From the NCBI GenBank assembly GCA_019426215.1, contig CM033408.1, forward strand, positions 8,435,077-8,499,076: a stretch of 64,000 bases of DNA, read 5' to 3'. The translations under genes and the position numbers were made by a program. How positions within the stretch are numbered: the stretch's first letter is position 1; the number at the start of each line of letters is the position of its first letter. This document shows positions 3,068 to 46,060 of this stretch, piece after piece. The notes under the pieces were generated by a model. That model did no database searches. It worked only from the letters and a program-made list of their open reading frames with translations, and was not told where the DNA came from. The DNA is from Buddleja alternifolia. Taxonomy: Eukaryota > Streptophyta > Magnoliopsida > Lamiales > Scrophulariaceae.

Positions 3068-5509
3068 ATGACAAAAATGGGTTTAAGGGTTAGGCAGGTT
3101 GCTTTACTTTTTCTTTTTATAGCCATATTTAGTCATAGTGTTATAGCCGAACCCGAAAGAGAAACTTCACAAAGATTAAGAACTGCTCCGAAAAGAAATG
3201 CAGGGGGTGGTGTCATAGATGGGTCAGGTACAGAGCATATTGTTAACTCCGATAAGATTGAAAATGATATGGGTGGGTATGAAGGTGGAAATAGTAGAGT
3301 TTCAGTTTCGACAGTTGCAATTTTCACATTGGCAATGGCTGCAGCTACTGGTTTAGGTGCTGTACCGTTCTTTTTTGTGGAGCTTGATCCTCAATGGGCT
3401 GGAATATGCAATGGAATGGCTGCAGGGGTAATGCTGGCTGCCAGCTTTGACCTTATACAGGAAGGACAGGTCCATGGGAGTGGCAGTTGGGTCGTGTTGG
3501 GTATCTTGTCAGGTGGTGTTTTCATATGGCTTTGCAAGAAGGTGAAGCTCTCAGACTTATAATAAATTTATTTGTTGAAATCTGGATATGTTTTGTTAAG
3601 CTTGTTATTTTGTTATTTTATAATTATGATGTCAGTTGATAAGCTTTGAAACCAGTAATTATTTCAGCATTCTGTTGTGGCTTTAAGATTACCATATGAA
3701 ACGACCAAATTAAAGCCGTTGTGACTTTCTGGGAATGTCATGTTTTGATTCTTCATAAATGGTGTTATCTAGTAAATCATTGTACCAATTGATGCCTCCA
3801 TAAATATGTTTTGATTCTGTAATAGCTCTAAAGGTTCAACATGTTCCAGATTAATATTGTTTTGTCGACTATTTAAGTCTTGTTTTTCATTTCTCAATAT
3901 GCTTGCCTGAAAACACCTTAATTTCTTTACTCATTATCAAAAGCCAAAGATTTCATCATGCTCTAGCTTATTGGATACGCCAGGGAACTGAGTCTTATTA
4001 AATGGTATTTGGTTGTTTATCTTGGTAGGATCTATTCTTTCTATCAAAATGGAGTTTCAACCTATTCCTGTAAACCAATTGTTTTCTCCTTTATCATTTT
4101 TAATCTAAATAGTATCTTCATAATAATTAAGAATCACATTGGAACTCTTCCTAAGTTTTTCATGTGGGATATGGTAGTCCTGAATTTTTAACTGCGAATC
4201 ACCTTCAATTTTATGTTTCCTTTTGATGCTCAGATTCTTGAGCAATACGGTGAAGTGAGCATGCTAGACATAAAGGGAGCAGAAGCAGCTAAAGTCATTC
4301 TTGTAGTTGGAATTATGACTCTTCATTCTTTTGGGGAGGGCTCGGGTGTTGGAGTTTCCTTTGCTGGCTCTAAGGGTTTATCTCAAGGCATATTGGTTAC
4401 CTTGGCCATTGCTGTGCACAATATACCCGAGGGCTTGGCTGTCAGTATGGTTCTGGCATCAAGGGGGGTTTCTCCACATAAAGCTATGTTATGGAGTGTA
4501 ATTACATCACTGCCCCAGGTAATTTCGTTTTTATTTTATTATGGACAACCATGGATAACACTTGAAGCAATGTTATAAGTTGGAAATGAACCAAGGGGTT
4601 TGAATCCGTTTGTGAGTGTTTATAATAATAAATTGAAAATTTAGCATTTTACATAATTTGTTGATGCAGCCCATTGTAGCGGTTCCTTCATTTATATGTG
4701 CTGATGCATTCAACAAGTTCTTGCCTTTTGCTACGGGATTTGCTGCTGGGTGTATGATTTGGATGGTTATGGCCGAGGTCCTTCCAGATGGTTTCAAGGT
4801 AATTTGATTCATTGTCCTTTATGCCCAATGGAGCACGACCATTCACTGCCAAAAGATTAAATAAAAGAGAAAAAGGGGGAAAATGAGATTATGGCAAATG
4901 CAAACAAGAATTTTCTTGTGATTGATTTTGCTATCCATATTACTTCTTATGTAAATTGTTTGAATTTCCTAAATTAGTTCCGCGATATATTGATTCTCAA
5001 GTGGTGTTTTAATCTTCTGACAAACGAATATAGGACACTACCAGGTAGAGAGTTCTTCTGTGGAATTAATATTAAGAGCTAATTTTATGCCTAAAATTGA
5101 ATTTTTGTAAAAGTAACAGTTCTTTCTGGATTACGCCCCTCTTTCAAGAACTCGGTTATCTACAAAATTGGACGACGCTATTCCTGAATTTTGCTCATGT
5201 AATTGTGATGCTTAAATTCTCATATTGAATAAAGAAAAATGCATACTTATGTCGATGTGTTACCCACCGCTTTTGAGTTGAATACCCTATCTGAATTAAG
5301 AGTAAATTTGGTCTCTGGCCCCAACAGTCCAAGATTCCTCAATGTTTGTACCTAAACTATGATTAGAGTTTTTAACCATATTCCTTATTGCAGGAATCTT
5401 CCCCATCTCAAGTTGCATCTGCTGCTACACTTTCTGTAGCATTTATGGAAGCTCTCAGTGCTGTGTTTGAGCATTTTAGCCACAACTACAAGTGAGATCC
5501 CTCTCTCTC

Positions 5510-5545
<36 letters not shown>

Positions 5546-8412
5546 AGGTCAACCCATGTCCCTCTTTCTTTGTTTTTTGTCTGTCGGATTATGTTTGCTG
5601 CTCGTGCACTCGAACAGAGCTGATACACTCATCGTTTTGCTGTATTTTATGCTATCTCGAGAAATTGCATAATGATGACTTGCCTTTTATTATTTTCATC
5701 TTTCTCTCTAGTGCCACCAAAGGAAAAGCTAAAACCTTGTCATGACATAACCTACTTAACCATTCAGGGAGTTTCCTTAAGTTGGTACTTTCCATCTAAT
5801 TGATATCCAAGGATGCTCATTTAGCTAACTCCATTATTGGTGGCTCAAATGTTGACATGCATGGGTAATTCTTTCCAGTGTCTTCAGAGCATATGAAAAT
5901 GAAGAATTATATCAGAAGTTTTTTCGCATATTATAGACATACTATTGGTTGAGGCATATTCGATGTGCGTGCTTAAAAATTTAAAATTACGATAACTTCA
6001 TGTATTTGTTTATAATTATGATGAATCATTAATAATCATATTTAAAAATTATATAATAATGTGATTGAAAAATAAAAATAACATGGAAAGGGAAAGGGAA
6101 AGGGAAAAAACAGAAAATGTGAAAGAGGGTGGGAGGACGTGGGAGATGGAGAAAAGAGGAAAGAGAATGTAGGAGAACATAGACGAAAGAGAAATAAATC
6201 AACAGTACATTGACACTTCTCAAATTCTTAAGGTGGTCAGGTGCAAGGTCTTAAATATCGGTTTCGGAGTAGATATCGGTGTGGTAAATTTACGGAAATT
6301 TCGATGGAAATTTCGGGGATATTCAAAATTTCGGTTTCGATTTTAAAGAAATCATGGAAATTTATAAAAATATTTGGAAATTTGCAATAAAATTTTGGGT
6401 AACTTTAATTGTCATTCTTATGCATCTTTTACATCAATAATATTCTATATATAATATATGGATAATTAATTTGTTAAATAATATCACTAAAACTGTTGCG
6501 AAAAATATGAAATAAATATAATTTGATAGTAAGATAATAACCAAATCTCATAGGAACTTCATTAAAATAAAATGTACCAAGATTTAAGTAAAAGTTACTA
6601 CTCAATACTACATCGAGTTTTTAGGAGGATCGAAATCGCTATCACTAGTATCTGTCCTACCTCTACTTTCATATTGCAAGTGAAAATTATTAGTTACATG
6701 TTGACAATATTCCGCCCATGACATGGAATGTTGGTAGTATTGCATATAATGATGATGATGATATTCTTCTGGTGTTGAATCTTGAAGAACCTCAATGGAT
6801 ACAACATACTCGATAGGAGTAGTAACATAAACTTATGGCAAAGGATATGAGTAAGATTGGTGTGACATTATATCCACTATGTGTCCAATGTGGATACATA
6901 TTATGTGTATAAATATAACTTTCTAATTATATGATATTTAAAAAAAATATATATATATATAAAAAAAAAATTCGGCCGAAATGTCGGTTTCGGTAAATAT
7001 TTCGGGAAATATCGGGTTTCGGCCGAAATTTCGATGGATATTTGACAAAAATATTTTAAATTTCGGGGAAATTTCTGGTTTCAGCCGAAATTTCGGGAAA
7101 TATCAGGTTTCGGTCTAAATTTCGGAAGATATTCTGCAAAATTGGATCGAAGGTTCGATTTCACTTCGAAACCCCCCGAAATCCGACCGAAATTTCGGTG
7201 TTTCGGTCGAAATTTTAGACCATGGTCAGGTGTCATACCAAAATGCGAGCAGACAACTTGTTGGAATATGGTCTAGATTTACGGATATAATATTGGAGAA
7301 GAATGAAATTCTGATGAAATTCCTGATTGTTCCAATGAATTGCAAATTTTTGTACAACTTAATTCTCACAAAAATTAAGGCGTAGGATTTCATGGTTCCG
7401 GAACTCTAAGGATATCGGGTTCTCTCATTTTGTTACTTCACATGGTGTTATAAACCATATTGAATCTTGAAAGGCTTCCACTTCATTACATTTTGCTCTA
7501 TGATACCCCTTTAAGACGTATTAGTCAAAATGGAGAATCTGCAAAAGTTACCTTCATGTAACCTATTTGTTACTTAACTATATTATTTTCCTTTGCAGTC
7601 CAGAGGATGCTTCGGGCTTGATTGTTTCTCTACTTTTTGGGCTAGGCCCGTTGCTCGGTGGTGTCGCTCTTGTTGCATTTGCTCTTGCTTTCCGCCTACA
7701 GCATGCGCTCCTCACCGGTGTGGCCTCTGGCATTGCCTTTGTTCTCGGTATCTGGCGACCCCTGCAACTACTTCTCTCCTCTAAAATCGGGCTTTTCCCA
7801 CTGCTATTTCTTCTCGGGCTGGGCTTTGCATTCGTCCACTTATCTACAACCCGCACAATAAATCTCGGGACCCGCAAAAAAACTTCCGCAAATACGTTAT
7901 CTGCTGTAACAGGCTTTTCTGTCAGTGCACTCACTCTTCAATCAATCTTATCTTGCTTAGCAATTGCCCTCCACGCTCTTCCGGAGGGTCTTGCATTGGG
8001 TGTAGCCGCACCAAAGGCTTACGGGCTCGGGCGACACATGGTCCTACCCGTTTCCCTACACGGGTTTCCCCGGGGTGCAGCTGTCGCCAGCTGTATCTTA
8101 GGGGCGACCAACAGCTGGCATGGATCCCTTTTATCTGCTGCGCTTATTGGGCTTGTGGGCCCGATATCTGCTATCGGGGCGATACTTGCTGGGATTGACT
8201 ATAGCGGGTTGGACCACGTAATGGTGTTTGCTTGTGGGGGACTTTTCCCGTGTTTTTGGAGCGTTGTTAGGAGAGCGGTTAAGTTAGATAAACGGAAGAG
8301 CATTTGTGGGGTGGTTGTGGGCGTGGTGTTTGCTAGCGTGTGTTTAATGTGCACGAAGCTAGTGTGTTTGCATACTCCGTATTGCAATTCTGCACCGGAA
8401 GCTGTTAGATGA
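3068..8412 (+). CDS. ZIP-family zinc/metal transporter (At3g08650-like)
   Basis: Five coding exons, 3068-3541, 4234-4518, 4670-4798, 5394-5491 and 7599-8412, join with GT-AG splices and no internal stop into 599 aa. The start gives a hydrophobic signal-like N-terminus (residues 1-27). A lumenal spacer follows, then hydrophobic segments typical of ZIP transporters. Metal-site motifs are visible: HSFGEG at H189, HNIPEGLAV at H220/E224, and a second HALPEGLALG at H454. ZIP proteins move Zn2+ or related divalent metals into the cytosol across plasma or organelle membranes; the substrate here is not shown by the sequence. Length agrees with the roughly 600-aa plant group typified by At3g08650. Intron 4 (2.1 kb) holds a hAT relic and a CA microsatellite. 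The gene is convergent with the AATF gene downstream. Confidence 0.9.
5513..5543. repeat. (CA)n microsatellite in ZIP intron 4
   Basis: About 15 CA/AC units lie just 3' of the exon-4 donor and follow a short CT run. This is a likely length-polymorphic marker. Confidence 0.9.
6244..7224 (-). mobile_element. Non-autonomous hAT transposon inside ZIP intron 4
   Basis: Perfect 8-bp target duplications GTCAGGTG (6236-6243 and 7225-7232) flank ends that are inverted repeats: CAAGGTCTTAAA on the left and CATGGTCTAAAA read from the right. An 8-bp duplication and CA-starting ends fit the hAT superfamily. Both ends are rich in TTTCGG/CCGAAA words. On the minus strand, around 6870 down to 6611, a decayed frame with one internal stop ends in a His/Tyr-rich tail with a SRGRTDTSDSD motif. 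This resembles the C-terminus of plant hAT dimerisation transposases. The insertion sits in an intron, so the coding sequence is untouched. Confidence 0.75.
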
Positions 8413-15428: not shown

Positions 15429-15590
15429 ACAAGTTGGCGGAGGCGATGGTGGCTTCGCCGGCGGTGGTGTGGTGCGCGGGGTTGTAGTGATATTCCGGCG
15501 GCGAAGGCGGAGATGTGATGGCCTAGGGTTTAATCGAATTGTTACAGGTTGGGGTTTAAGGCTTTGAGCGTGCTGTATCTATGCCCAAGG
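15429..15590 (-). promoter_or_regulatory. AATF 5' leader and promoter with telo-box
   Basis: Read on the minus strand, a leader-like CCGCCG-rich segment ends at a possible donor, TCGTTG|GTAAAC near 15424, suggesting a leader intron before the ATG at 15149. Upstream, at 15524-15531, is AAACCCTA, the telo-box common in promoters of plant ribosome-biogenesis genes. Only about 60 bp beyond it the large MULE begins, so the more distal promoter has been pushed 12.9 kb away. Confidence 0.5.
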
Positions 15591-15650
15591 GGCAACTTAG
15601 CAATTTTAGACCCCAATTGCAGGTGTGTTGCAGTATTAGACTCCTTATGT
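15591..15650. repeat. Left terminal inverted repeat of the large MULE
   Basis: It contains TAGACCCCAATTGCA, which is repeated in inverse orientation at 28441-28455, and a second AGACTCC box. The outermost 22 bp align without gaps to the right end. Confidence 0.85.
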
Positions 15651-15969
15651 TTTGGAATTTTTTTTATTATTTTTTTTTAATAGTGAGAATGCTATTTTGG
15701 TGTGAAGTGCCCAGAATACCCTCCATTAAAAATCCCCCAATTGAAGAAATGTTGAAGCGTTTCTTGTTTGCCTTTTTTTTTATTTTTTTTATTTTTGATT
15801 TAATGTATTATCTAATTACATTTAAGCCCTTTGAGCCAAAATAATTGTAAAAATGTGTGACAACTTTAGAAAGCGTACTTTTGAAAACCTTCCAATTTAT
15901 CATTTGGCTGGGAAGTTGAAAGTCTGAACGGGCAAAAATCAAGGGGGGAGAGACGAGAAGGGGAAAAAG

Positions 15970-16192
15970 CACAAGAACCATATCGGCCGATATTTATACA
16001 GTATATCGGAGGAAAGAAGCCAAGTAAATCTTGTATTATTGTTCATAAACATCCTCCTCCCACCTCTTCTTCATTTCCCCAAGGTAATTTGAATTTTGAA
16101 GCCAGATTCGCAATTCTAGGGTTTTTGTGAAACTATTTTAATTTTGTAATTTTGATTGTTAAACCATTATTGTTTAGTCCCATTATCGATCA
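15970..16192 (+). promoter_or_regulatory. Promoter/leader of the MULE protease gene
   Basis: A perfect 14-bp palindrome, ATATCGGCCGATAT (15980-15993), overlaps a TATA-like TATTTATA (15991-15998). Another CAGTATATCGGAGG follows. Poly-pyrimidine leader sequence comes next, before the ATG at 16193. Confidence 0.45.
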
Positions 16193-19100
16193 ATGGCTGC
16201 TTCCTCCTCATCGGGTACCAAACGCCAACGTGAAGTGGCTTCAGCCAGCCCTGGAACTTCCTCCACACCCCCTGTAAGTGAACTAGCTTCGAAGTATTTT
16301 ATATTTTTAGCAAAATTTATAAATGTAGTTTTTTTGGGTTGTGTGTGATGTATTATTGACTGTGTTTTAGGTTTTATGGTTGGTAATTGTTGATTTTTGT
16401 TGGATAACCTGATTTTTTTGTATGGTATAAAAGTTTAGTCGTTAAATTTGACAAATGTTTTTGTTGAAGCGTGTTGTTTCAGGGCAATTAGGAAGTATAT
16501 CTTGATATAGGGTTATATCAGTTTGTGTTTATAAGTAATTTAATTGAATTTTGTCTTAGGTTTCCGACCCAAACGACATCCCTCGGCCCACTTTTACATT
16601 GAGTCCCGATAAATTTAACTTGAAGTGTAAAGTTGGCAGCAAATGCAAATTGAAAGAGGATCTTAAGTATATTGAAGAGTGTTTAAGTGACCATCCTGAT
16701 GGTATAATGTGGTTTCAAAACTCTCAATTTGCCCCATTATTCGACGTTGCTTCGGACATGGACATGGTTTTAACTCCTCTGTGGATGCTTCTAACACGAA
16801 TAGTGGATTCTCCAGACCATTCTGAAATTTGGTTTGTTGTAAATGGCATTCCTATTCGTTATTCTTTGTTGGAGCATGCAATTATGAGCGGGTTGAATTG
16901 CTCCCGGTATCCTGCAGCTTCAAAGGTTGTGGAGGATGATAATTTTAGTCGTAGATACCTTAGCCCTAAAGCCACCGTTAAAATTCTTAGGGAACAACTT
17001 AAGAAGCGTGTGATTTGTGGAGAAGTAGACCGTTCTAGAACTCGTCGAAAGTCTTCGAAGAAGGCTGCGAAGAAGGTGGCGAGTAGTTCCAGTGACAAAG
17101 CATTAGAGATCCTTCCATCTGACAAGTTAAAGCTTGCGTTATTGTATTTGTTGGTTTCTGTTTTTTTTATCCCGCCACATGATGATTCACCAATTGATTC
17201 CCGTCTTCTTGCAATTGTTGATGACCTTGAGTTTGCGAAAACTTATCCATGGGGTAGGCTTTCTTATTCTGTTATGATGGACCAATTGAAAACCTTGGAC
17301 TTGAAGAAAAAATTGGTTGCGGCAAATCCACAGTGCAACTTTCGTTGTTTTGTTCTCCCACTTATGGTAAATTTGGTTTTTATCTTTCATTGTTAATTGT
17401 CGACTTACTGTTATGTGAATATTTGATAATATCTTTTTTGTTCCGATGTTAGCTTCTTCCTTTCGAGTGTATACCCGTACTCTCACCAATGATTGGGCGG
17501 TTGAGGGAGAATATGCCCGGACAATTGCCGAGAATGTGCAAGTGGACCACTAAACTTCTTCACAAGAGACAATATCCCACCTTGTCTCAAATTCTTATGT
17601 TGGTTGGAAACACCCAGGTTAGTATTTTCATTGCCAATTTGAAATGTTAAAATCTCAAACCTTATTTGCGTATCAATCTTCGCCTTTTATAATGAATTGT
17701 ATTAATTCTATTATATTTATTTGTTTATTTGTTTGATAGGATATTAAAAGCCTACTTCAAGCCACGCCGGAGGAACTGGCAACAGACCACATGCAAAGCT
17801 TTGCTCCTTTTGATCATGCCAACAGCAAGGTCCATGACCCCACCACCAAATTATGGACTGAAATACTCGAGAAAGGAGGTAGAATTGTATTTGATGACAT
17901 TTTCCGAATAGATTTGGAATCTCGACATTCCATTCTTCCAGTGAGTAAAATTGCAACCATAATCGACGATGAAGGTAGAAGACCTGAAAAGGAAAATGTT
18001 GAATGTGAGGCAGGCAAAGTTGCACAGGACAGTGTTCCTGGTGTTTCATCCATTCCCATGAATACCAATGATATGGTTATGAAAGTCCTTCGTGAGTTAA
18101 TAGCAAAGGGTGATTTGTTATCACAAAAGATTGATTTGTTATCACAAAACAGTATTGGTATGAGTGAAAGGTTAGAAAAGGTTGAAAGTGTGTTAAAAGA
18201 CCTTTCAACAAAGGTTGGAGGTGATGAGGATGATGATGATGGGGTTCTTGGTGAGGATGAAGGGGTCGGTGGTGATAAGGATGATTTTGTTGTTGAGGAT
18301 GTGGATGAAGGAATTGGTGGGGATGCAGGTGAAGGATTTGGTGAGGATAAAGTTGATGGTTTAGCCATGGTCCTTTTTAATCATGGTGGAGTGGTTGTAG
18401 GTCCTGATCCCATGGTAGATGTAGTTGTACAAGAAGAATCTGAGTTTTATTTGAAGAGGATGCCAAAGAAATCCAATTACCAAAAATCTCCATTTACCAA
18501 TCCGGATGCAAGGAAGAAGAAGAAGAAGAAAGTACGTAAGACGTAATATGGCATTATGTGTAATGGTTTTATTAGTTGGTTTGGTTTGATGACTGTGTTT
18601 GTTTGTAGTACTACGGGTACTGTGTTGGTATACAATATTAGTAATGTTATTCAGTATTTTTATTTTTGTTAGTACTAGTACTTGTATTAGTATTAGTATT
18701 AGTATTTGTAATATTGTATTTGCTGCACTGTGTTTGTTTATAGTATTATGTGTACTGTATTTGTATACAATATTAGTATTAGTAATTTTATTCAGTATTA
18801 GTATTTCTGTTAGTACTAGTACTTGTATTAGTATTAGTATTTGTTTTTGATAATATTCCACTGTGTGAATTCATCTTTTTTTTCGAACCCCAGGTGGAGT
18901 CGGGCCCAAATACTGGTACAGAACCGGTGGAGAATGATTTGGCTGGGGATTTTTTTGTGCCTCTTACTCCAGAAGAAAAAGATGTTGTTTCTGAAGCCTT
19001 GACCCGTTCAAGTTCTGAAAAAGTGTTGGTGACTCACTCTAATATTCAGATTACCGACGAACAGTTACGGTGTTTTTTGGCAAGAGGTTGGCTCAATTCT

Positions 19101-19658
19101 GATGTGATTAATGTGTATTTTCACTTGTTGAAAGAAAGAGAGAGGAGGGAGCCAACCAAATTTTTAAAGTGCCACTATTTTAACACTTTCTTTTACACCG
19201 CTTTGGTTCGTAATGGCGTATATGATTTCAAAACTGTCGAGGATTGGACCACCCCGACCAATCTGGGATATCACCTCCTTGATTGTGAAAAAAAATTTGT
19301 GCCTATTCACAAACCCGATCATTGGTGTTTAGCTATTATCAACAAAAAGGAACAAAAGCTCCAATATCTTGATTCTGATGGTGGACAAGATGAAGAAGTT
19401 TTGAAATTTCTTGCTATGTATTTTGTTGATGAGGTGAAGCAGAAGAGTGGAGAAACCATTGATCTGAGTTTGTGGAATCACGAGTACACCAAGAACCTTC
19501 CTCGACAGGAAAATAACTACGACTGTGGAATGTTCATGATCAAGTACGCCGACTTTTGTAGTAGTTCGGCTGACATTGGTCTTTGTTTTGGACAGGCTGA
19601 CATGTCATATTTTAGGCAGAGGGTAGTTAAGGAGATTTTGAACTTGAGAGTAGATTGA
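16193..19658 (+). CDS. DUF1985 + Ulp1-like (C48) cysteine protease of the MULE
   Basis: Five exons, 16193-16273, 16560-17366, 17453-17617, 17740-18531 and 18894-19658, all in phase 0, join to 869 aa without a stop. Residues 1-27 are Ser/Ala-rich. The next 300 or so contain the DUF1985 signature (EIWFVVNGIPIRYSLLEHAI, then MSGLNC). A Lys/Arg patch, a middle coiled-coil-like stretch with repeated LLSQK, and an Asp/Gly-rich acidic tract follow, ending in a Lys run. The C-terminal 250 residues are a C48 protease with His758 (DHWCLAI), Asp775 (LDSDGG), Gln820 and Cys826 (NNYDCGMF), so all catalytic positions are present. C48 enzymes cleave SUMO or similar modifiers; DUF1985 proteins of VANDAL MULEs counter silencing. 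Which activity applies here is unknown. The intact frame and splice sites suggest recent function. Confidence 0.88.
18594..18850 (+). repeat. Duplicated AGTATTA/TAGTACTAGTA-rich tract in the protease gene's last intron
   Basis: Two diverged copies of roughly 125 bp lie in tandem. Each starts near TGTGTTTGTTT, contains TATACAATATTAGTA, and ends in TTAGTACTAGTACTTGTATT plus short TTAGTA runs. The 7-mer AGTATTA occurs six times by my count, once as TAGTATTAT (18741-18749). Confidence 0.75.
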
Positions 19659-20435
19659 TGAACAATGAAATTGCTATTAACTTGTAGATACTTTTAATGT
19701 ATTGTATCAGATTGGCATGCAGTATAACTAGTATTATCCGTATACTGGCCAGATTGGTACCAAGTATAACTAGTATATTCCTTAAAATTTATTGCTTTGT
19801 ACTATATTTTTGTTAACTTGTAATTCACATTTAGCATTAGTGTGATAGATTTTTTTGGACGGTATTTAAAAACTTATTGGCCATTAGTGGATAGATTTTT
19901 TTGTTTGGTAAAAAAGTAAGATGAAATTTATTGCATTATTGAAGTGGGTTGTTCTCAATCCCATCCATCCCATCTATTTATTCAATACATGGTAGTATAA
20001 TAGTTATACTAGCTATACTAGTGGTCATTCAAAACAGTATAATAAATGTGGGGAAGTTATCACATTAGTTTGGGTGAGAGGAAGTTTGAACGCCTCACAC
20101 CACACGTTCACCCTCCCACCATATTAGTGTATGCTTCAGTTTTTGACAGCTGTTAGAGGAGAGGTTAATTTATTAAACTCCTTCCCCCCACTTCCCCTGC
20201 CGTTTCCCCTTCCTCTCCTCACTTATGAAATCTGCGTAGCTCTAGAAAAACATTTTCACCATCTCTCTTCTCTGTGCACTCATCCGAAGCTTCACTCTCT
20301 CTCACTTTCTACCTTTCTTCCTTCCTCACTTATTTTACCCATCATTTTTCACTCATCCGAAGCTTCACTCACTCTCAGTCATCCGAAGTTTCACTCACTA
20401 TCACTTTCTACCTTTATTTATTTAGGAAATCTACC
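19659..20435 (+). other. Spacer and leader between MULE protease and F-box genes
   Basis: This is the 3' region of the protease gene, with TAACTAGTAT repeats at about 19723-19772, followed by the pyrimidine-rich F-box leader. The leader holds three copies of a short unit, TCATCCGAAGCTTCACTC or a near match (about 20280, 20350 and 20380), and two of TCACTTTCTACCTTT. No separate gene is seen. Confidence 0.5.
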
Positions 20436-22002
20436 ATGGATATTGAAGATAGATTAAGTGTGCTTCCTCCTGATGTGATTTTTCACATTATGGATCAGCT
20501 ATCAAAACTATCAGTGGTGGAGGCATCAAGGTTGGGATTTATATCAAAACATTTCCAACATCTTTGGTACTCAATCCCTAAACTAGAGTTCAATCATGGC
20601 GCTTTTTTACATCATAATATGTTTTTGTATAGTGGGTTACATTTTTCAGATTTTGTTAATCGCACGGTTGAACAACATAACAATAGTGTTGTTCATACTT
20701 TGATACTTGATTTTGGTAGGGGGGAGGGAGGTGGCGACCGTATTAGGGAAGATTGGGTATTATTTGGTGTTGATCACCATGTTCGAAAACTCAAAGTAGT
20801 TGGTCGTTTATTAAACTCTCTCCCTAGCACCCTATTTTACTCACACACTGTTGTTGATCTTAAACTATCTCTGCCTAAGTATGTTATTATGTGGGAGGAT
20901 GGAATCTTATTGCCAAATTTGAAAAAATTAGTATTGAAGCGTGTAGTAATGATTGACAATAGGTTTGGCCTTAAGAATTCAAAATGGTTTCCCACATTAG
21001 AGGAGTTGCAACTACTTAGTTGTGATTTTGAAAATATTCATGAATTTTTGGGTAATTTCCCCTGTTTGAAAATAATAAAAATGGCTTTCAACCAAGGCCA
21101 GAGCAATATCAACACTCGGCTATCGATCCCAAATTTAGATTGGTTGGTTATTTTAATGACCCAAAATCAGGGCGTGTCGGGGCATATGCAAGTGTCCAGA
21201 GCTCGTACCTTGAAATGGATATTACGTGGTGATGCCATGGACTTTGAAAGCAATTGCACTGATAACCTTTTCCATCGAGAGGTTGTTAAAATGGTTAAAG
21301 AATTATTCCTCACCGATGACGCTCATGTGTCGATGGTTTTCGGACAGGTATACCTCTCATTGGTTTTGATATCTGTGTGCATTAAATCTATGAAATTGTT
21401 GTTGATTTTACGTTTTTGGTACTTTGGTAGGTTTTGGCCAGCGTGGCTGGTCTACATCGTCATGTGTCGTCTTGTTATTTTGTCGACATGTTCAGCTTAA
21501 ATATGACATGTTTGAACAAGATCGATCATTTCGCAATGACACTGGTGATGATTAGTAGATGTCCGAACTTGGAAACATTTTCAATTAATTTGGTGGTAAT
21601 ATTCTACATTTTATGATTTGTTGATTATAACATGGTTAATTAACAATTTGATATCGGATATTCCGTCAATAAAATGGTTTCTGTTTTTTACCTGTTTTGT
21701 AGCCGAGTGACATGTTGGTAAACAATCCCACAACGGTTGGTCAATATGTAGAAGAGTGGAATTTGGGTGAGTTGGGATTGGACAATTTGGACGTGGTGAG
21801 CGTAACAAATTTCACGGGCATTGAATCCGAGATGAGCTACGTTATGCACGTGTTATTGCACGCATCTCAGTTGCAGAGGGTAAATATTGTGTGCAACGAC
21901 GTTTTTGCTGCTGACCGACATATATGTCAGCAAAAAATTAGGACGATAAGGTTGTTTCCAAGATTATCGGAAAATGTACGGCTTCGTTTCTCGTTTATGT
22001 AA
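20436..22002 (+). CDS. F-box / LRR-like (FBD-type) protein carried by the MULE
   Basis: Three exons, 20436-21347, 21431-21595 and 21703-22002, join in phase 0 to 458 aa. The ATG at 20436 is chosen because an F-box begins a few residues later: DRLSVLPPDVIFHIMDQLSK, then SRLGFISKHFQHLWYSIPKL. F-box proteins bind SKP1 and give SCF ubiquitin ligases their substrate choice. The middle has irregular leucine-rich repeats (LPNLKKLVLKRV, FPTLEELQLLSCDF, FPCLKIIKM), and the end resembles an FBD region (ASQLQRVNIVC). Splice sites and frame are intact. Plants have hundreds of F-box/LRR genes, and this one is probably a captured host gene. Its target is unknown, and no WD40 or Kelch domain is present. Confidence 0.85.
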
Positions 22003-22049
22003 TATATATACTGAAAATATTGCTATTGTATACCCAATTTGACATTCAT

Positions 22050-23740
22050 TTGATGGTAGAATATTGCTATCCAGTATCCAGAATGGTAGTTATACCGTAC
22101 GAATATTGAACCGGTATAACCCGTATACAAAGCAGAATGATAGATATACCGGTAGAATGGTTATCCAGTATATTCAGTATACCGGACAGAGTCATAGGTA
22201 TACTAGCAGAATATTGATCCGGTATACTCATATACTGGGCATTTAGGGTAGCTATACCGGACGAATGGTTATCTGGTATACTAGGCAGAATGATAGGTAT
22301 ACCGGACGAATATTAACCAGTATAACCAGAACAGCGCTAAAACATTTAAATTGCTTGAAATAATAATATGTCTATGGATTACATATATGCTTCTACAACT
22401 AATTAATGTTTAGGATATATTTATAGATTAAGTTGCAATAAGAATTTAATTTAATAGGTCCAAAAAGAATAGGTATAGCGGACGAATATTGACCCGGTAT
22501 ATGTAGTATACTTGGCAGAATGATAGATATACCGGACGAATGGTTATCCGGTATAGTCAGTATACCATGCTGAATGATAGGTATACCGGACGAATATTGA
22601 TCCGGTATATTCAGTCTACTAGGCAGATTAGAAAAACAATTGGAAGTGAATCCATCGCCAAATGACATATGATTGGTTGAAATAGAACAGAGCTAAAACA
22701 TTTAAATTAATGTTTAGGATATATTTATAGATTAAGCTGCAATAAGAATTTAATTTAATAGGTCCAAAAAGAATAGGTATACCGGACGAATATTGATCTC
22801 GTATATGCAGTATACTTGGCAGATTGAAAAAACAATTGGAAATGAATCCATCGCCAATTCACATATGATTGGTTGAAATAGAACAGTGCTAAAACATTTA
22901 AATTGCTTCAAATAATAATATGTGAATGGGTTACACCACAATTGGCGGCAGCAATACACATGGTTTAGGGTATCGAGTTTTAGGGTTTAGGGTATCGATC
23001 AGAGGTAATGTGAACCTAAATTTTGTGATGTTTTAATAAAATATACCGTGTGCAACAATGCATATTTGAATGTGGAACAATTGATGTATTTCATATATGC
23101 TTCTACAACTAATTAATGTTAATAGTTTCTCATACCTAGTAATAACATGTTTATATGTTGTACTTAGTATACTAGGCAGATTGTAAAAACAATTGGAAGT
23201 GAATCCATTGCCAAATGACATATGATTGGTTGAAATAGAACAGAGCTAAAACATTTAAATTAATGTTTAGGATATATTTATAGATTAAGCTGCAATAAGA
23301 ATTTAATTTAATAGGTCCAAAAAGAATAGGTATAGCAGACGAATATTGACCCGGTATATGCAGTATACTTTGCAGAATGATAGATATACCGGACGAATGG
23401 TTATCCGGTATAGTCAGTATACTATGCTGAATGATAGGTATACCGGACGAATTTTGATCCGGTATATTCAGTATACTAGGCAGATTGGAAAAACAATTGG
23501 AAGTGAATCCATCGCCAAATGACATATGATTGGTTGAAATAGAACAGAGCTAAAACATTTAAATTAATGTTTAGGATATATTTATAGATTAAGCTGCAAT
23601 AAGAATTTAATTTAATAGGTCCAAAAAGAATAGGTATAGCGGACGAATATTGACCCGGTATATGCAGTATACTTGGCAGAATGATAGATATACCGGACGA
23701 ATGGTTATCCGGTATAGTCAGTATACTAGGCAGAATGGTG
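22050..23740. repeat. Palindromic 54-bp minisatellite in about 305-bp higher-order units
   Basis: The monomer has a TATACCGGACGAAT half and an ATCCGGTATA half, so each monomer can fold (TATACCGG...CCGGTATA). Successive CGGACGAA marks at about 22479, 22533 and 22587 are 54 bp apart. Blocks of two or three monomers are joined by a common roughly 150-bp spacer (ACATTTAAATTAATGTTTAGG ... ATTTAATTTAATAGGTCC). This gives higher-order units starting near 22438, 22741, 23293 and 23598, with the middle interval longer and diverged. Two TTTAGGG words lie at 22962-23000. Stop-free stretches here are repeat artefacts, not genes. Confidence 0.85.
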
Positions 23741-23994
23741 AAGGCGGGAAATCCGAAAAAGTTTGAATAAAAAAGCGGGAAAAGAAGAAAAGCAGGTTTC
23801 TTATATTATTCCCAGCATCTAGATTATTCCTATTATTCATTATCCAATATCCACATCCAACATTCCATTTTCCACAATATCCCTCTCTCTCCACTTCCCC
23901 TCTCTCTCTCTCTCTTCTCTTCCCTCTTCACTATTTACTGTCTCTCTCGTCTCTCTCCCTCTCCTACCTCGTCTCGGTATCAAATTACTGAATC

Positions 23995-24474
23995 ATGGAG
24001 GGATTTTGGTCACCTACTTGTAAGTGCAGGCGAGGCAGAATGATTATTCACCGTGCCAGACCGGATACAAAAAATCCAGGTCGCTACTTTTATCGATGTC
24101 CCGGCTGGAAAAGACATACAGATTGTTATCTTTGGTGCGATGAATACCATAACGAAAATCCTCATATACCACAGCCAAGTTTTATGGACAATAACGTCCG
24201 CCCAACGCAGACAGAGCAAGGTGCTTCGTCTAGTAAGGACAAGGGTTCCGCCACTGCTTGCCCGAGCTTTGATTCAGCCATTGACCGGTCAACGGAAAAT
24301 AATATATGTATGACTGTTAGATTTGGCAAGCCGCTGCAAACTGAATTGAGCCTAACTAGTAGGGGGTTCTCCCTAATGTGTTGTTTCGTAATCGTTGCCT
24401 TGATTCTGCTTGCAATTTTCATATTTGTGGCTGGTCTATCAGTTGGACTGATCATTCATCAGTCCAGTATTTGA
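23995..24474 (+). CDS. GRF-type zinc-finger protein with C-terminal membrane anchor
   Basis: A single-exon frame of 159 aa follows a CT-rich leader. Residues 9-48 form a GRF zinc finger: C9-x-C11, the family's NPGRYFYRC motif with C35, then C44 and the aromatic YLWC. GRF fingers bind single-stranded nucleic acid in the better-known members (topoisomerase 3, APE2, NEIL3). A low-complexity Ser/Thr linker follows. Residues 126-154 are a strong hydrophobic segment (LILLAIFIFVAG), making this a small tail-anchored protein. Small GRF-plus-membrane proteins of this plan are common in plants and lack a known role. It lies between the satellite array and the transposase, in convergent orientation with the latter. 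Confidence 0.8.
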   Translation: MEGFWSPTCKCRRGRMIIHRARPDTKNPGRYFYRCPGWKRHTDCYLWCDEYHNENPHIPQPSFMDNNVRPTQTEQGASSSKDKGSATACPSFDSAIDRSTENNICMTVRFGKPLQTELSLTSRGFSLMCCFVIVALILLAIFIFVAGLSVGLIIHQSSI

Positions 24475-24943
24475 GTGTAAAATCAGTAGTTTTCTTTCCT
24501 AGATTTTGTATATAGTTGTATGTCACCAGTATTTTATATGTATGTATATTGTTCAGATTATTCAGATTCGCCTGCCTAATTCTGCCACATGCTTCCCCGC
24601 ATAACCATAACTTGCAAAAAATCTCCAATTTAACAGTTCAACATCAAGACACATGCAAACGAGCATTTACAGCACAAAAATGAATAGCCAGAAATTAAGC
24701 ACACAAAAAAAAAGCAAAACTAATTTAAAGCAAGCTTGCTATTTTATTCAGTACAACCTTATATGATTGAAAAAACACAACATTATATGATTGAAAAAAT
24801 ACAACATTATAGTTCCCACCAGTTGGATTGGAGAAACAATCATTGATTAATCCATCCTAGTTTTATACCAACTATTAATCAAATTATTAAAAAATAAGGA
24901 AATAAAAAATCATACATCTCTATCTCTCCATAGCTCAGTTTAT

Positions 24944-27505
24944 TTAGAACTTTCTTGGATCTTTTTGTCTCTTTGACTTCTTCCGAACCTTCTGTCCACC
25001 TGCCTCCATTCTAACAGACTGAGGCACTCCAGGCCTTTTCGTGTAGTCCGGAGGTACCACCCGAATGGCCTTTACTTCATCAGGTATGATCCAAGTGGAT
25101 TGATTAGGAACGGGGTATATGGTTCGGGAATACGCCAATGCCCATAATTCCTTCAAGTAGTACTTCGAGCATAAAGAGACCAATTCTGCGTCATCACCAG
25201 AAAATGCAGCAAGCGCGTGCTCACAAGGGAGATGGTCAATGTCGAAAACTCGGCAACTACATTTTTTCTTCTGGAGGTCAACAAAGAAAATTTCTTCCTG
25301 ATCCAAAGCCCCCGTGCGATTGACCATATACTCACCAGCAAACTTATTAAGTTCTTTAGCTATATAGAACTGGCACTCGCGTTTCCTTGCATGCAATGTG
25401 CTTTCCGCTTCTGGAGTTAGGAATTGTGACGATCCACCCTCACAAGATTCGTTGCGGTGCTTATTGAACCACCGACATATCAAGTTCACAATCTCATCCA
25501 TCAAAAGAATCAGCGGAAATGATCGAGCACCAACCAAGGCAGCATTAATGGACTCAACTCCGTTGGAAGTCAAAATGTTGTATCGTGAACATTCAAAGTA
25601 GCACCTGGCCCAACGCTCCTTTATAAGGAGTAGATCTTGCATATACTCGTGAAACTTGATGCATGTACGAGGTTGCCTTCTTGTTAGGTCATCAAAACAT
25701 TTTCCGAACTCTTGAACAGTGTATGCTTCAGCACAAGCCGTGAACTTCCCCAACACGCTTTCGCGATGTTCATTTTTCTGTTTACCCCTGCCGGTATTAA
25801 CGCGAGTCCTAATATTTTGAGAAATATGATAAGCACAGAATTCATGTGAAGCCTTGGGATACACTATCGGAACTGTATTTATGATGCTTCCGTTTCTATC
25901 TGAAATGATGACCAAATCTTCAGAATCGGGTATCACCTCGCTAAGCTTGTCCAAGAACCAAGACCATGATGCATCGCATTCACTTTACACCAAAAGCAAG
26001 AGGATATTGATGTTTGTTGCCGTCTTGTGCAGTACAAACTAATAATACACCTTTATACTTGGTCTTTAAATGTGTGCCGTCAATAACGATTACCTTCCTC
26101 ATGGCCTTAAATCCTTCGATGCATGCTCCCAATGCAAAGAATAAAGACACAAACTTGCCATCCACATCTGTACATATGTCAGTAACTGTACCGGGATTCA
26201 CCACCTTCAGCATATACAAATAACTCGGAAGAAAAGCATAACTTTCCTCCGGGTCACCCCTGATAGTACTTCTCGCTAGATGTTTACCCCACAGGGCTTT
26301 GGAGTAAGAAATATGAAGGCCCTGATTTACCATTTTTGAACTATTGTCTTTGGCGACGGTGTATCATACTGACATGGGAAAGTCTTTAACAACATGTTAC
26401 AAACCTGCGATGCGCTACTTTTTTCTGCTTTAAACCCCACTGAAGGTGAGCATGTATGGATCTTACTATGAATGCGCAAGGAGAAAACATCTAACCCTCC
26501 GGTCTTTCCAGCACGCAATCTCCACTTGCATTCCGGATCCCTACACTTAAAAGAGAATATCTTTGTGTTTGACTTAGATCTTTTAAAATTGAAAGTTGCT
26601 TTCAACGAAGCATTCAAAACCACGTCGAACACCTCATCTTTGCTTCTGAATTCATGTCCAATAGGCAGATCTATACCATCCTCAAAACTATAGGTCTCAA
26701 CAACCTCACCAGGAATAGGTTCACTAACCGTAGCTCGAAGAATTGGAATTGAGTCTTCCCTTGAGAAACAGAGAGGTGTACTGGAAGCATGTATTGGACT
26801 TGAGTCATCCCTTGAGAAATAGAAAGGTGAACTGGAAGCATGTATTGGACTTGAGGGAGCGGCAGGAGTAGATTGGAGATTTTCAACATTTGGAGTCGAA
26901 ACGGGAGTTGATTCTAAATTTTCATTGCTTGGAGGATTTTGTTTGATAGGAGTTGGGGAAGAGGCCATAGATATGGGCGGAGACATCGGCTTATCTAAAA
27001 CAAAAGCCGGCCTACCTGGGGCAGATGTATAGTCGTCAACCACATTCACATCCACATCCACATAAGAACCTGAGTCCTCACTATCAGAATCCACTCCATC
27101 TATATCAACACCATTACCATCATCAAACCAATTGTGTTCAACAGGAACCCTCTTCTTAACAAGCTCAACATGGAGAATGCTTCTACACTTGGATACACGA
27201 CATTGGTCCATAAGATAACATTTTACATCAAAATCGGTCAAAATATATTTAGGGTTTAAACCTTTACAGGACAAAGGCGTATAACTCAATTTGATTTCAA
27301 AGTCATTCCGGTTAAAAGGAGCCTTTTCAAATATGAAATCCTGAAGCTTTGAAAATGTAATCGCGTTAAGATCATCTCCCTCTTCTCCGATTATTGCATT
27401 GTGCATTTCATAATTATTCCTTGAAATCCATTCATATGCTCCTAATTCTCCGTCTTTCTTCTGCCACTCTCCATCGTATCGGTAGTACAACAAATAGTCT
27501 GACAT
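24944..27505 (-). pseudogene. MURA (MuDR-type) transposase, two frameshifts
   Basis: The minus-strand start at 27505 (MSDYLLYYRYDG) follows an acceptor-like CATTTTAG, implying a leader intron. The N-terminal part holds a PB1/ubiquitin-like start, then the MuDR DNA-binding domain (FRSKDEVFDVV ... CRDPECKWRLRA ... HTCSPS). The reading frame breaks in a poly-A (T5 on plus, 26333-26337), where one base appears missing. It resumes with SYSKALWGKHLA and the DDE core (VIVIDGTHLKTKYKG). It breaks again near 25981-25990, then continues with the second acidic motif (IISDRNGSI), a helical domain and a SWIM zinc finger (CSCRVFDIDHLPCEH), ending in a basic tail. Both breaks lack splice signals. Mobility would need another copy's transposase, unless the breaks are sequence errors. 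Confidence 0.85.
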
Positions 27506-28409
27506 TTTCCTAAAATGAACAACAACAAAAAAATTACTGCTATTGAAACTATTTATGATCGAACTATGCACCACCAGTATACAGAATGATATTCCTTTTA
27601 ACGAGTAAACACATTATTCTTCAACCTGCCTACATGGGATTGCCTACTGCACAACAACAAACAACACAAATAATTTTCAAAACTATTTATGATTCAATTA
27701 TACACCACTACCATTATACAGAGAGGGCTATTCCTATTATTTAACGAGGATTCTTCAACCTCTCTACATTGCCCACATGACAATTACATTGCCTACCGCA
27801 CAACAGCAGAATTATTCTTCGAAATCAACCACAAAATACAATCCTACACACATTCACAATCATGAACAAGAAGAAGGCGAAATTGGTTCAAAAAACTCAT
27901 GAAAAACGAAATTGAAATAATTACCAAGAATTCGGGTGGATTAAACTCCAAATGCACCTCGAACAACTACAAACAATCGTCTTCCGAAGTCGATGAAAAC
28001 AATGTTGCAAGTTTTCTTTGGTTAATATCAATCAGGGAACAATTGTACATGATTTCGAATCAATTGGGAAAAAAGATTTGGGCCAAGCAAGAACCCTAAA
28101 TTTGGACTGAATTGGGGGAAATATGCTTCAGCAGAAACTCAGCACTTCAGCCCTCAGCAGCGCGGCGGGAATGGGAGGGAAATAGATGATTTTTCTTTTA
28201 TTTTTATTAATTTAATTGAATGTAAGGATATTTTAGACATTTCATAAATCACTAATTTATCTTTTCTTTTGATACAATTTTGTTAGTAAGGGCAATTTAG
28301 AACATTCACTTGAATGAATATTCTTTTAATTTAAAACAAATGAGTTAGTAAGGGTATTTTAGAACTTTCAATTGAGTGGGTCCCACAGGGGTCTAAAATT
28401 GAGGTGGTT
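27506..28409 (-). other. Leader and sub-terminal region of the MULE transposase gene
   Basis: This is an AT-rich region between the transposase start and the right TIR. A GC-richer segment with CAGCAG repeats (about 28130-28175) near the TIR is the likely transcription start area. No independent gene is recognised. Confidence 0.4.
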
Positions 28410-28471
28410 TTTTAAAAAGGTCTAATTTTGTAGTGTGATATGCAATTGGGGTCTATTTTTGTTAACTTCCC
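28410..28471. repeat. Right terminal inverted repeat of the large MULE
   Basis: It is the inverse of 15591-15650, with mismatches. TGCAATTGGGGTCTA is the most conserved core. It is followed by the target duplication GCCCAAGGG. Confidence 0.85.
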
Positions 28472-28647
28472 GCCCAAGGGTGAGACACAGGAATTTCATA
28501 CTCTTGAGTTATTTTTATTAAATTATTAATATAATTAATGTCTCATAATATTAAAAATAAATATATGAAAAATAGAGCTCGCGAGCTTCAAGGAGAGCAA
28601 ATTTGGCTCGGGCTCGACCTCGCATTTATGTTTCTGAAATAATGTAA

Positions 28648-34848: not shown

Positions 34849-34857
34849 TAATATCAA

Positions 34858-35233
34858 GGGATAATTGCATAAAACTCCCTATATTATTTCAACAATGCTA
34901 AAAGCCCTCCTATGTTAACGAAGTAGGCTAATCACCCCCCTGTGTTTCTAAAAAATGTGCAAAAAAGCCAAATTTTGTTAAAATAATAGAAGAAAATATG
35001 TGTTTTTTTGGGTGAATTAACACTATTTACCTTTTATAAAGTATGAAAATATATAAATGACAAATGAACATGTCAATAAAGGTGAAAAACATGAAAAATG
35101 CGCTCATTTTTTAATAAAATTTGATTTTTTTGCACACTTTTTAAGAACGCAAGGGGTGATTAGCCTATTTTGTTAATATAGGATTTTTTTTAAATATTTT
35201 TGAAATAACATAAGGGGTTTATGCATTTACCCC
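34858..35233. mobile_element. Fold-back MULE-type MITE, 376 bp
   Basis: The perfect 9-bp duplication TAATATCAA (34849-34857, 35234-35242) flanks an element that is nearly a complete inverted repeat. The left side has GGGATAATTGCATAAA, TTATTTCAA, AGGCTAATCACCCC and GTGCAAAAAA in order, and the right side repeats them in reverse. The stems are roughly 130-150 bp long. Confidence 0.9.
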
Positions 35234-35242
35234 TAATATCAA

Positions 35243-37797: not shown

Positions 37798-38580
37798 TAT
37801 ATTGATCTAATCCAAATCCGGGGACTTGAATCAATCAGTCTTGAAGGACTCGAACCCTACACACGAGTATGATTATGATGGTTTTAGACTGCACTTAAGG
37901 ATAATTAAGCTACCTACGTACTTAATTAGTATCAAACCAACGTAGTTCTATAATAAGGTGAATAGTCAGGGTCGTACTCGAGGAACGATTTTAACTTCCA
38001 AATTTATATGTATATAGGAACGTACTTCTCAGTCTATAGACTCGTTACTAATGAATATACGAGGCTAAAACCGGAGAGATTATTCTCCAGCCCCCCCGCA
38101 ATAAGTGTTATGAGGGGGTATTTATAGATGCAAGTGTTGTACGGATCTGACAGCGATAAGTGGGTCGCACCGATGATGCCACGTGGTGCCTATGAACGGT
38201 CAGGATCTTGACTCATATCTAGCGAACGACCCGACCCGGATCACTTAAAAACACGCGGATCTTCCATTATGGGCCGGTTTCTGGGTCTGTGTTGGGCCTC
38301 ACATGCTATAATATTTCATTCTTGGGCTAAATACCATATTTTGGTATATCATTAAGTCCCCCACTTCATCAGTATTAAAGAGGAGACATTTATGGCTTTA
38401 AATTTACTACTGAGGAAGTAAAAGTCAAAAGTAAATCTGAATTTTTCAAACAGAATGACACTTTCACATGACCTTCGTCAAAAGAATGAACAAGCAGAAA
38501 ACAGGTAACGAGATTGGCGTGACCCTAAATAGCGATATTACAAATATGATCTGTGTTTCACATCAAAGTTTAAAGTCGAA

Positions 38581-39030
38581 TTAGACTTAAGAGTTAAAAA
38601 TGTGATCTTTTATCTCGGGTCGTTCACGACGTACGACTCCAGAGTTAGAGTCTAATTCGACTAAAGAGTTGAAAATGTGATCTCTCTAAGATCATCTATC
38701 TCGGGTCGTTCACGACGTACGACTCCAGAGTTAGAGTCTAATTAGACTAAAGAGTTGAAAATGTGATCTCTCTAAGATCATCTATCTCAGGTCGTTCACG
38801 ACGTACGACTCCAGAGTTGAAAATGTGATCTATCTAAGATCATCTATCTTCGAGGCTAGAGGCTAATTAGACTAAAGAGTTGAAAATGTGATCTTTCTAA
38901 GATCATCTATCTCGGGTCGTTCACGACGTACGACTCCAGAGTTAGAGTCTAATTAGACTAAAGAGTTGAAAATGTGATCTCTCTAAGGTCATCTATCTCG
39001 GGTCGTTCACGACGTACGACTCCAGAGTTA
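38581..39030. repeat. 86-bp tandem repeat inside the LTR element
   Basis: The marker CGTTCACGAC recurs at about 38621, 38707, 38793, 38918 and 39004. Spacing is 86 bp, except one 125-bp interval with a partial unit. Each unit contains GGTCGTTCACGACGTACGAC, which is self-complementary in part. Confidence 0.9.
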
Positions 39031-39640
39031 GACAATCCCTTTCATTTGATGGGTTGCTCGTAATTACGAGTCTGACAATGCTTTCATTTGATGGTTGCTC
39101 ATGATTACGAGTCTGACAATGCTTTCATTTGATGGGCTGCTCGTGATTAGAAGTCCGACATCCCTTCATTTGCTCGGCTGCTCGTGATTACGAGTCTGAC
39201 GATCCCTTCATTTGCTGGGCTGCTCGTGATTACGAGTCTTACGATCCCTTCATTTGCTGGGCTGCTCGTGATTATGAGTCTGACGATCCCTTCATTTGTT
39301 GGGCTGCTCGTGATTACGAGTCTGACGATGCTTTCATTTGATGGTTGCTCGTGATTACGAGTCTGACAATGCTTTCATTTGATGGGCTGCTCTTGATTAC
39401 GAGTCCGACGATCCCTTCATTTGCTAGGCTGCTCGTGATTACGAGTCTGACGATTTCTTCATTTGTTGGGCTGCTCGTGATTACGAGTCCGACGATCCCT
39501 TTATTTGCTGGGCTGCTCGTGATTACGAGTCTAACGATCCCTTCATTTGCTGGGCTGCTCGTAATTACGAGTCTGACGATCCCTTCATTTGTTGGGCTGC
39601 TCGTGATTACGAGTCTGACGATCCCTTTATTTGCTGGTTC
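39031..39640. repeat. 42-bp tandem repeat with CTCGTGATTACGAG hairpin
   Basis: About 14 units read GGGCTGCTCGTGATTACGAG followed by TCTGACGATCCCTTCATTTGCT, with variation. Adjacent CTCGTG marks at about 39181, 39223 and 39265 are 42 bp apart. Because 42 is a multiple of three, both strands stay open for over 100 codons; these frames are artefacts. Confidence 0.9.
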
Positions 39641-40333
39641 CTCCTTCAACATGCGGATCACCAACACCTTGATCCAACTTTCCCTCCACTTGAACCAAAC
39701 GAGTCTTCATATTGCCAGCCTCCATTCCTAATAACAAGTCTCAGCAACTTCAAAGTAGTTTCCCACAGACGGCGCCAACTGATCTAATCCAAATTCGGGG
39801 ACTTGAATCTATCAGTCTGGAAGGACTCGAACCCTACACACGAGTATGATTATGATGGTTTTAGACTGCACTCAATGATAATTAAGCTACCTACGTACCT
39901 AATTAGGATCAAGCCAATGTAGTTCTATAATAAGGTGAATAGTCAGGGTCGTACTCGAGGAACGATTCTAACTTCCAAATTTATATGTATATAGGAACGT
40001 ACTTCTCAGTCTATAGACTCGTTACTAATGAATATACGAGGCTAAAATCAGAGAGAGTATTCTCCAGCCCCCCCGTAATAAGTGTTATGAGGGGGTATTT
40101 ATAGATGCAAATGTTGTACGGATCTGACAGCGATAAGTGGGTCGCACCGATGATGCCACGTGGTGCCTATGAACGGTCAGGATCTTGACTCGTATCTAGC
40201 GAACGACCCGACCCGGATCACTTAAAAGCACGCGGTTCTTCCATTATGGGCCGGTTTATGGGTCTGTGTTGGGCCTCACATGCTATAATATTTCATTCTT
40301 GGGCTAAATACCATATTTTGGTATATCATATAT

Positions 40334-45700: not shown

Positions 45701-46060
45701 ACTCTGTTAAAGTTGAGAGAATGAGAAAATCTTGCAAAAGTGGGAGTGAAAATTTTTTGCAAAGTTGAGTGAATTTATAGATGAATTTAGGATAAAATAA
45801 TAAAAAACAAAAGGTTTTCCGTATTAAAAAAAAAGAAAAATTGAAGATGACATTTGGCATGTTGTCTTCCATTTTCAAAAAAATAAATAATTGAAAATTG
45901 AAGACGACATGCCAAATGTCGTCTTCAATTTTCAAAAATTAAAAAAAAAGAAGAAAATTTATGAAGACGACATATTTCATGCCGTTTTATATTTTTAATA
46001 TAACGATTTTTAAATCATATTATTTTGAGAATTTTTTTATATTATTCTAATAAAAAACTC
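42793..46060 (-). mobile_element. Deleted Mutator-like element, 3.3 kb
   Basis: The 10-bp duplication GAGCATTGTT (42783-42792 and 46061-46070) flanks roughly 200-bp inverted repeats beginning GGGTTTTTTATTAG on the left and GAGTTTTTTATTAG read from the right. Each TIR contains further palindromes built from GAAGACGACAT and ATGTCGTCTTC. Inside, on the minus strand, is only the N-terminal part of a MURA transposase. A segment near 44700-44880 with GGAATCGGAACCG repeats may be a nested insertion. Confidence 0.9.
43020..44322 (-). pseudogene. MURA transposase N-terminal remnant
   Basis: From 44322 to 43966 a frame begins MEITDDESLRFFMNPDGK. From 43944 to 43477 another carries an acidic stretch and the MuDR DNA-binding domain (FKDKKHLICAVKDYSVRHAK, VKCKHKDSRIKCKWFLRAIY). 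Downstream, to about 43020, only a stop-ridden remnant of the region around the first catalytic Asp remains. The sequence then runs directly into the left TIR. The rest of the catalytic core and the SWIM finger are absent, so this is an internal-deletion derivative. Confidence 0.75.

Follow-up and report, generated by a model that had tools for sequence, protein, structure and literature searches.

Mutator-like elements (MULEs) that carry an Ulp1 protease gene have been reported in Arabidopsis, melon, rice and grapevine (PMC2528002, PMC13317346), and the accessible part of a 2026 review describes the precise function of Ulp1 domains in plant transposons as unknown (PMC13317346). The same text is the one review that links Ulp1 proteins of the Kaonashi ULP-like (KIU) type to VANC-like anti-silencing activity (PMC13317346). 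VANC proteins themselves, according to the available portions of two reports, bind to short sequence motifs within tandemly repeated noncoding DNA, VANC introns included, and these repeats are family-specific and fast-changing (PMC5735166, PMC10398659). Here we analyzed a window of 64,000 nucleotides from Buddleja alternifolia (assembly GCA_019426215.1, contig CM033408.1, positions 8,435,077 to 8,499,076 of the forward strand), to which plain positions below refer, and found that 15591–28471 is a MULE of about 13 kb, a degenerate member of a family that has amplified recently. The standard content of this family, seen in all ten sister copies that were fetched, is a transposase gene, a gene for a DUF1985-Ulp1 protease, an F-box-like gene, a gene for a GRF zinc-ribbon protein with a hydrophobic segment (GRF-membrane) and a noncoding array of dyad symmetry. 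The explanation that we consider best for the whole, at a probability of roughly 0.6, is an amplified four-gene MULE whose DUF1985-Ulp1 protein would serve as an anti-silencing factor acting at the element's own array.

The element ends in 31-bp terminal inverted repeats (TIRs), delimited by comparison of the arms, at 15591–15621 (plus strand) and 28441–28471 (minus strand). The two arms match at 25 of 31 positions, and across 11 copies, the window included, 19 to 26 of the 31 positions match in ungapped alignment. Target-site duplications of MULEs measure 8–11 bp. The window copy is flanked by GCCCAAGG at 15583–15590 and GCCCAAGGG at 28472–28480, which gives an 8-bp duplication GCCCAAGG in register, plus (G). 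Sister copies show a duplication of exactly 9 bp in six of ten cases, a match at eight of nine positions in three and no clean duplication in one (C18_2M). Because the terminus of the sister copies reads GGGAA in eight of ten, the window duplication probably represents the standard 9-bp GCCCAAGGG, a single G having been lost at the left end. Homology stops within a few bases of the element termini in all ten sister copies; these include C6_25M, in which the BLAST match starts 67 bases inside and the terminus could nevertheless be located. The 1-kb flanks on either side of the window copy had no match of their own of at least 100 bp in the genome. The first-pass annotation of this stretch had proposed that both ends and the duplication can be read directly and that four genes and the array moved as one unit. 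The 31-nt arms and the flanking duplication were found again, and the ten sister copies share ends, genes and array, in agreement with both proposals.

To place the element in its family, we searched the 853.6-Mb assembly (429 contigs). The F-box protein gave 164 matches, part of which were listed; by hand count among the matches listed, at least 35, counting the one in the window, show an identity of 91% or higher and span from residue 10 or earlier to residue 308 or later, and 29 of these 35 are free of stops. For the GRF protein, 148 matches were obtained, 45 of them full length and without a stop (hand count). We then paired 93 F-box matches with their neighbors, leaving out those that covered the second or third exon only. 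A GRF match (best 79 of 148) lies downstream on the same strand within 20 kb in 68 of the 93, and within 5.7 kb in 61. A listed Ulp1 match lies within 6 kb upstream in at least 32 of the 93, and at least 28 have both neighbors; the Ulp1 counts are lower bounds, with 150 of 1905 candidates scored.

The ten sister copies are the best F-box matches outside the window, a sample biased toward close relatives. They are 12,715–14,245 bp long, and each is a full element, complete with its two ends, all four genes and the array, which refutes the idea that the cargo might be absent from sister copies. Each differs from the family majority by 0.28–0.91% (about 11.1 kb outside the array), and their tree is nearly star-shaped; the low divergence and the shape of the tree thus indicate a recent burst. 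Counted over these ten copies and the window (n = 11), the Ulp1 frame is open with all splice sites in four (861 aa in one of them); a fifth open Ulp1 frame, in C6_25M, has lost one splice acceptor. Open frames were found for F-box in 9/11, for GRF in 8/11 and for the transposase in 6/11 copies (855 or 857 aa; the window copy is not among them). All four genes are open in two of the 11, and the family may therefore be autonomous. An older, related element directly abuts, with its left end, the 9-bp duplication that follows a family copy on contig C6 (L035-L036, ~17.83–17.85 Mb).

The MURA-type transposase gene occupies 24944–27505 on the minus strand and is interrupted where the frame shifts, near 26345 and again near 25983. 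An open 855-aa sister transposase matches the MULE transposase domain PF10551 (E 2.8e-21) as well as DBD_Tnp_Mut and SWIM, which makes this element a MULE by its transposase. The protease gene runs in the opposite direction, at 16193–19658 on the plus strand, with five predicted exons (16193–16273, 16560–17366, 17453–17617, 17740–18531 and 18894–19658) that encode 869 aa. The earlier description of intact protease, F-box and GRF frames and splice sites beside a broken transposase was borne out by the rebuilt gene models, which are predictions and in which every intron runs from GT to AG.

The protease combines two domains, DUF1985 (PF09331, E 2.9e-20, above the Pfam cut-off) and C48 (E 3.6e-31). 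The C-terminal half is SENP-like: its exon can be aligned with SENP2 (E 3.9e-36), and the active-site residues H, D, Q and C line up. Residues 1–400, searched against a set of 5.8 billion proteins, retrieved 16 proteins from Ficus, Arabidopsis, Raphanus and Cuscuta, all with DUF1985; eight of them also contain PF03384, which we take to be DUF287, four also contain C48, and four have DUF1985 alone. Over 390 alignment columns, residues 30–414 are 29% identical to one Arabidopsis hybrid protein. Because the N-terminal half is homologous to Arabidopsis proteins with DUF1985 and PF03384, the protease appears better read as a transposon protein of the KIU/VANC type than as a proteostasis factor.

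The dyad-symmetric tandem array extends over 22080–23737 and is internal rather than subterminal, between the F-box and GRF genes and just upstream of the GRF start. It is built of a 54-bp unit carrying the pair TATACCGG / CCGGTATA, which alternate in strand within the units, and of a 304-bp higher-order unit. All 20 TATACCGG sites of the window, on both strands together, fall within 22111–23716; 0.92 would be expected, and none of 100 shuffles reached 20. None of the four coding regions contains the motif. The other ten copies hold 11–23 sites each, confined to one stretch of the element. With 8-bp arms, 13 dyads were counted in the array, compared with a shuffle mean of 1.4 and a maximum of 12 in 200 shuffles. 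The distance from the F-box stop to the GRF start, 1992 bp in the window, is 1808–2690 bp in the ten sister copies, and 3107 bp in a further copy, S96; this gap varies, as does the length of the array, while the sister copies are otherwise about 99% identical. A second tandem repeat lies in intron 4 of the protease gene (18585–18844, plus strand), where AGTATTA, the core of the VANC21 motif, occurs six times in one orientation; these are six of its eight matches in the element. The VANC21 motif was considered and rejected, with the core alone present and not enriched.

Palindromic arrays were also seen beside other Ulp1 genes of this genome. We surveyed eight loci around the best Ulp1 domains, examining about 3.5 kb at loci without an array. 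Four of them (L002, L003, L005 and L008), which belong to a second Ulp1 family with 38–39% protein identity, carry, some 1 kb downstream of Ulp1, a tandem array distinct from that of the window element and palindromic by consensus; in L005, the only one of the four in which dyads were counted, 59 dyads lie in 407 bp, compared with a shuffle mean of 0.5. The remaining four loci have no array within ~3.5 kb. A common origin of the two arrays was considered; the match between them, 14 bases, was equaled in 5 of 500 shuffles and is too weak to support it.

The F-box/LRR/FBD-like gene lies at 20436–22002 on the plus strand (predicted exons 20436–21347, 21431–21592 and 21703–22002). Its frame and splice sites stand as first annotated; its length does not, since the 458 aa given there is the codon count with the stop included, and the 1374 bp including the stop encode 457 aa. 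The identity of the product is tentative and comes from three weak Pfam matches that agree among themselves and each fall short of the cut-off: F-box at 15.3 bits (cut-off 20.5), FBD at 19.0 (22) and LRR_At5g56370 at 24.4 (27). Among the matches listed, the first exon has five stop-free relatives in the genome, 48–49% identical, namely L041 (C6:45564000-45573999), C8:42835659, C3:385702, C7:54930 and C10:785406; those on C3, C7, C10 and C6 lie no more than 0.8 Mb from a contig end. By eye, the relative in L041 has the same intron positions; the 10 kb of this locus contain no match to Ulp1, GRF or the transposase. The GRF gene (23995–24474, plus strand) is a single exon encoding a zinc-ribbon protein of 159 aa that scores above the Zn_ribbon_GRF Pfam cut-off and becomes strongly hydrophobic from about residue 127, giving it a C-terminal hydrophobic segment. 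Neither protein had a homologue at E 0.001 in the set of 5.8 billion proteins, whose plant coverage looks thin, so this result is no evidence of orphan status. Both proteins would be accessory factors of the element.

Selection was assessed from the ratio of nonsynonymous to synonymous change (dN/dS). An older subfamily is represented by the copy S71 (C15:12.02 Mb), which has the same gene order and genes that are 77–85% identical. Compared with C3_52M, with gapped and stop codons skipped, it gave ratios of 0.48 for Ulp1, 0.50 for F-box, 0.51 for GRF and 0.47 for the transposase, the last over the 736 of 855 codons at which the aligned stretch ended. The check proposed with the first annotation, dN/dS for each cargo gene, thus returned about 0.5 throughout in this one pair, equal to the transposase. 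As three of the four genes of S71 have themselves decayed, these values are upper estimates for the active lineage. In the closer copy S96, whose Ulp1 and transposase frames are broken, the ratios were 0.40–0.84, based on few changes. An estimate from the near-identical copies was set aside as drawing on too little divergence and mostly on post-insertion decay; the pooled ratios of 0.59–1.07 are as expected from the decay of dead copies. Based on the content shared by all ten copies and on cargo ratios like that of the transposase, we conclude that the cargo genes belong to the transposon.

Between S71 (L039 positions 4950–6620) and C3_52M, synonymous divergence was 0.34 in the F-box gene and 0.19–0.21 in the other three; the F-box excess, 77 of 282 sites, gave p = 0.0004 in Fisher's test, and exchange of the F-box gene between lineages is a possibility. 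A GRF-like coding sequence on the opposite strand was seen by eye at about 6600–8000 of L039 (C15:12016640-12024639), inside the F-box–GRF interval of S71.

Based on an anatomy like that of VANC targets and on the DUF1985 homology, we infer that the array is the self-recognition target of the DUF1985-Ulp1 protein. In our model, this protein would be a sequence-specific anti-silencing factor of the KIU/VANC type that binds the noncoding array of its own element (22080–23737), and perhaps the intron-4 repeat too. Binding would reduce methylation of the element's DNA, allowing the transposase to be expressed, and the protease half may take SUMO-like modifiers off the silencing proteins present there. 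Fast change in array length and sequence would restrict the system to a single family.

Several observations weigh against this model. The link between Ulp1 or KIU proteins and anti-silencing comes from a single review (PMC13317346), and the terms 'ulp1' and 'kiu' do not occur in the available text of the two VANC reports (PMC5735166, PMC10398659). The VANC21 motifs are described as sharing one orientation, whereas the array motifs found here stand in inverted pairs, and over the whole window the core AGTATTA shows no enrichment (15 matches, 15.3 expected). By the count with 8-bp arms, the intron-4 repeat contains no dyads; the intron repeat and the main array are therefore not obviously one target. 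At the protein level, Pfam scans found no PF03384 match in the window protease, and the structure predicted for the DUF1985 exon is poor (mean predicted local distance difference test score 61.9), with four structural matches at E ≤ 10 and none at 0.001. The locus L006 of the second Ulp1 family has no array within ~3.5 kb, and tandem repeats can drift without function. Finally, the dN/dS values of about 0.5 come from one subfamily pair (S71/C3_52M), and pooled ratios among near-identical copies span 0.59–1.07 (F-box 1.07, transposase 0.98).

The ease with which tandem repeats drift would also suit a reading in which the array is a cis element unrelated to the DUF1985-Ulp1 protein, that is, a transposase-binding site, a promoter or terminator in the spacer from the F-box to the GRF gene, or a product of replication slippage. 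In its favor, transposase-binding repeats occur in MULEs, and the array separates two genes and closely precedes the GRF start. The internal rather than subterminal position speaks against a cis element, as does the palindromic array beside Ulp1 at four of eight loci in a distant family; the anatomy, moreover, fits the VANC targets as far as they are described in the accessible part of PMC5735166. We regard this explanation as a serious possibility, if a minority one.

Two further explanations concern the cargo rather than the array. Protease, F-box and GRF could be host genes captured as in Pack-MULEs and carried without benefit to the element. In favor of this, the pooled ratios of the F-box and transposase genes look like decay, and F-box relatives exist at five other places, the one that was read (L041) lacking Ulp1, GRF and transposase in its 10 kb. 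We nevertheless judge passive carriage quite unlikely, given that every cargo gene in the S71 pair shows the same ratio of about 0.5 as the transposase, that S71 keeps the gene order and that the F-box and GRF frames are open in most copies. The first-pass annotation had itself suggested a mobile proteostasis module. In such a module, an F-box adaptor and a SUMO-type protease would jointly act on host proteins to the benefit of host or element. Both product classes do act on protein modifiers, yet the other half of the protease is a transposon-type DUF1985 region that points to a KIU/VANC-type protein, and KIU proteins are deemed unlikely SUMO actors in the accessible text of PMC6117577, in view of their distance and low expression. 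The module is unsupported by our results and, in our estimation, most improbable.

Returning to the anti-silencing model, the accessory genes could extend it to a counter-silencing kit with two arms, in which the DUF1985-Ulp1 protein would strip SUMO-like marks at the dyad array, an F-box adaptor would direct a silencing component to degradation and the GRF-membrane protein would be a third accessory, with matched pairs of factor and array in each Ulp1 family. A viral precedent exists in polerovirus P0, an F-box protein that counters silencing and acts on ARGONAUTE1. We put this extension forward as speculative and, on balance, doubtful. Open genes that look selected, together with two distant Ulp1 families that have their own palindromic arrays, are present here in one genome. 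Array recognition by the DUF1985-Ulp1 factor, and a role of the protease there, can be tested directly outside Arabidopsis.

The window contains further repetitive features. A second, shorter MULE-like element at 42793–46060 has inverted repeats of ~200 bp (82%) and a 9–11 bp duplication within CGAGCATTGTT; by eye, a transposase-like N-terminal fragment lies near 43480 on its minus strand. At 37803–40329, two 550-bp direct repeats (96.5%) that start with TGATCTAATCC and end with GGTATATCA enclose tandem arrays (38604–39637), and the whole looks like a small non-autonomous long terminal repeat element filled with satellite. Two 325-bp direct repeats (90%) at 52246–57026 surround minus-strand fragments resembling Ty3-type gag/pol, as judged by eye, and the 378 bp at 34857–35234 match their own reverse complement at 70%.

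Among described systems, the KI-MULEs of Arabidopsis, which carry KIU genes, resemble the window family in a C48 gene oriented opposite to the transposase and in high copy number, as far as the available texts describe them (PMC2528002, PMC13317346). They differ in being described there as non-TIR elements, whereas the window family has 31-bp TIRs and adds a dyad array as well as F-box-like and GRF-membrane genes. With VANDAL21 (Hiun) and VANDAL6, both carrying VANC, our family shares a multi-gene MULE organization, DUF1985 in an accessory protein and noncoding tandem motif repeats that vary between copies and occur also in an intron of that protein's gene (PMC5735166, in the part available). 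VANC is shown in that part with DUF1985 and DUF287 and with motifs in one orientation at high density; the window protein instead joins DUF1985 to C48, with PF03384 not detected, and its array units are inverted pairs. VANDALs are described in the accessible text of PMC6446971 as having no TIRs or short degenerate ones, unlike the 31-bp TIRs found here, although some of the relatives grouped with them do have TIRs. The MULEs of melon, rice and grapevine that carry Ulp1 share this domain with our family, and those of melon include TIR-MULEs (PMC2528002); an F-box gene is not mentioned in the accessible part of PMC2528002, whereas our family has an F-box-like gene. Judged by titles and the opening of abstracts, no MULE combining Ulp1, F-box and GRF was found in the open-access literature, against which an F-box-like gene that a MULE carries and that purifying selection maintains would represent a novel class of accessory gene. 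Pack-MULEs, finally, also carry non-transposase genes, but as gene fragments and without a transposase, whereas the window family keeps a full transposase and whole genes.

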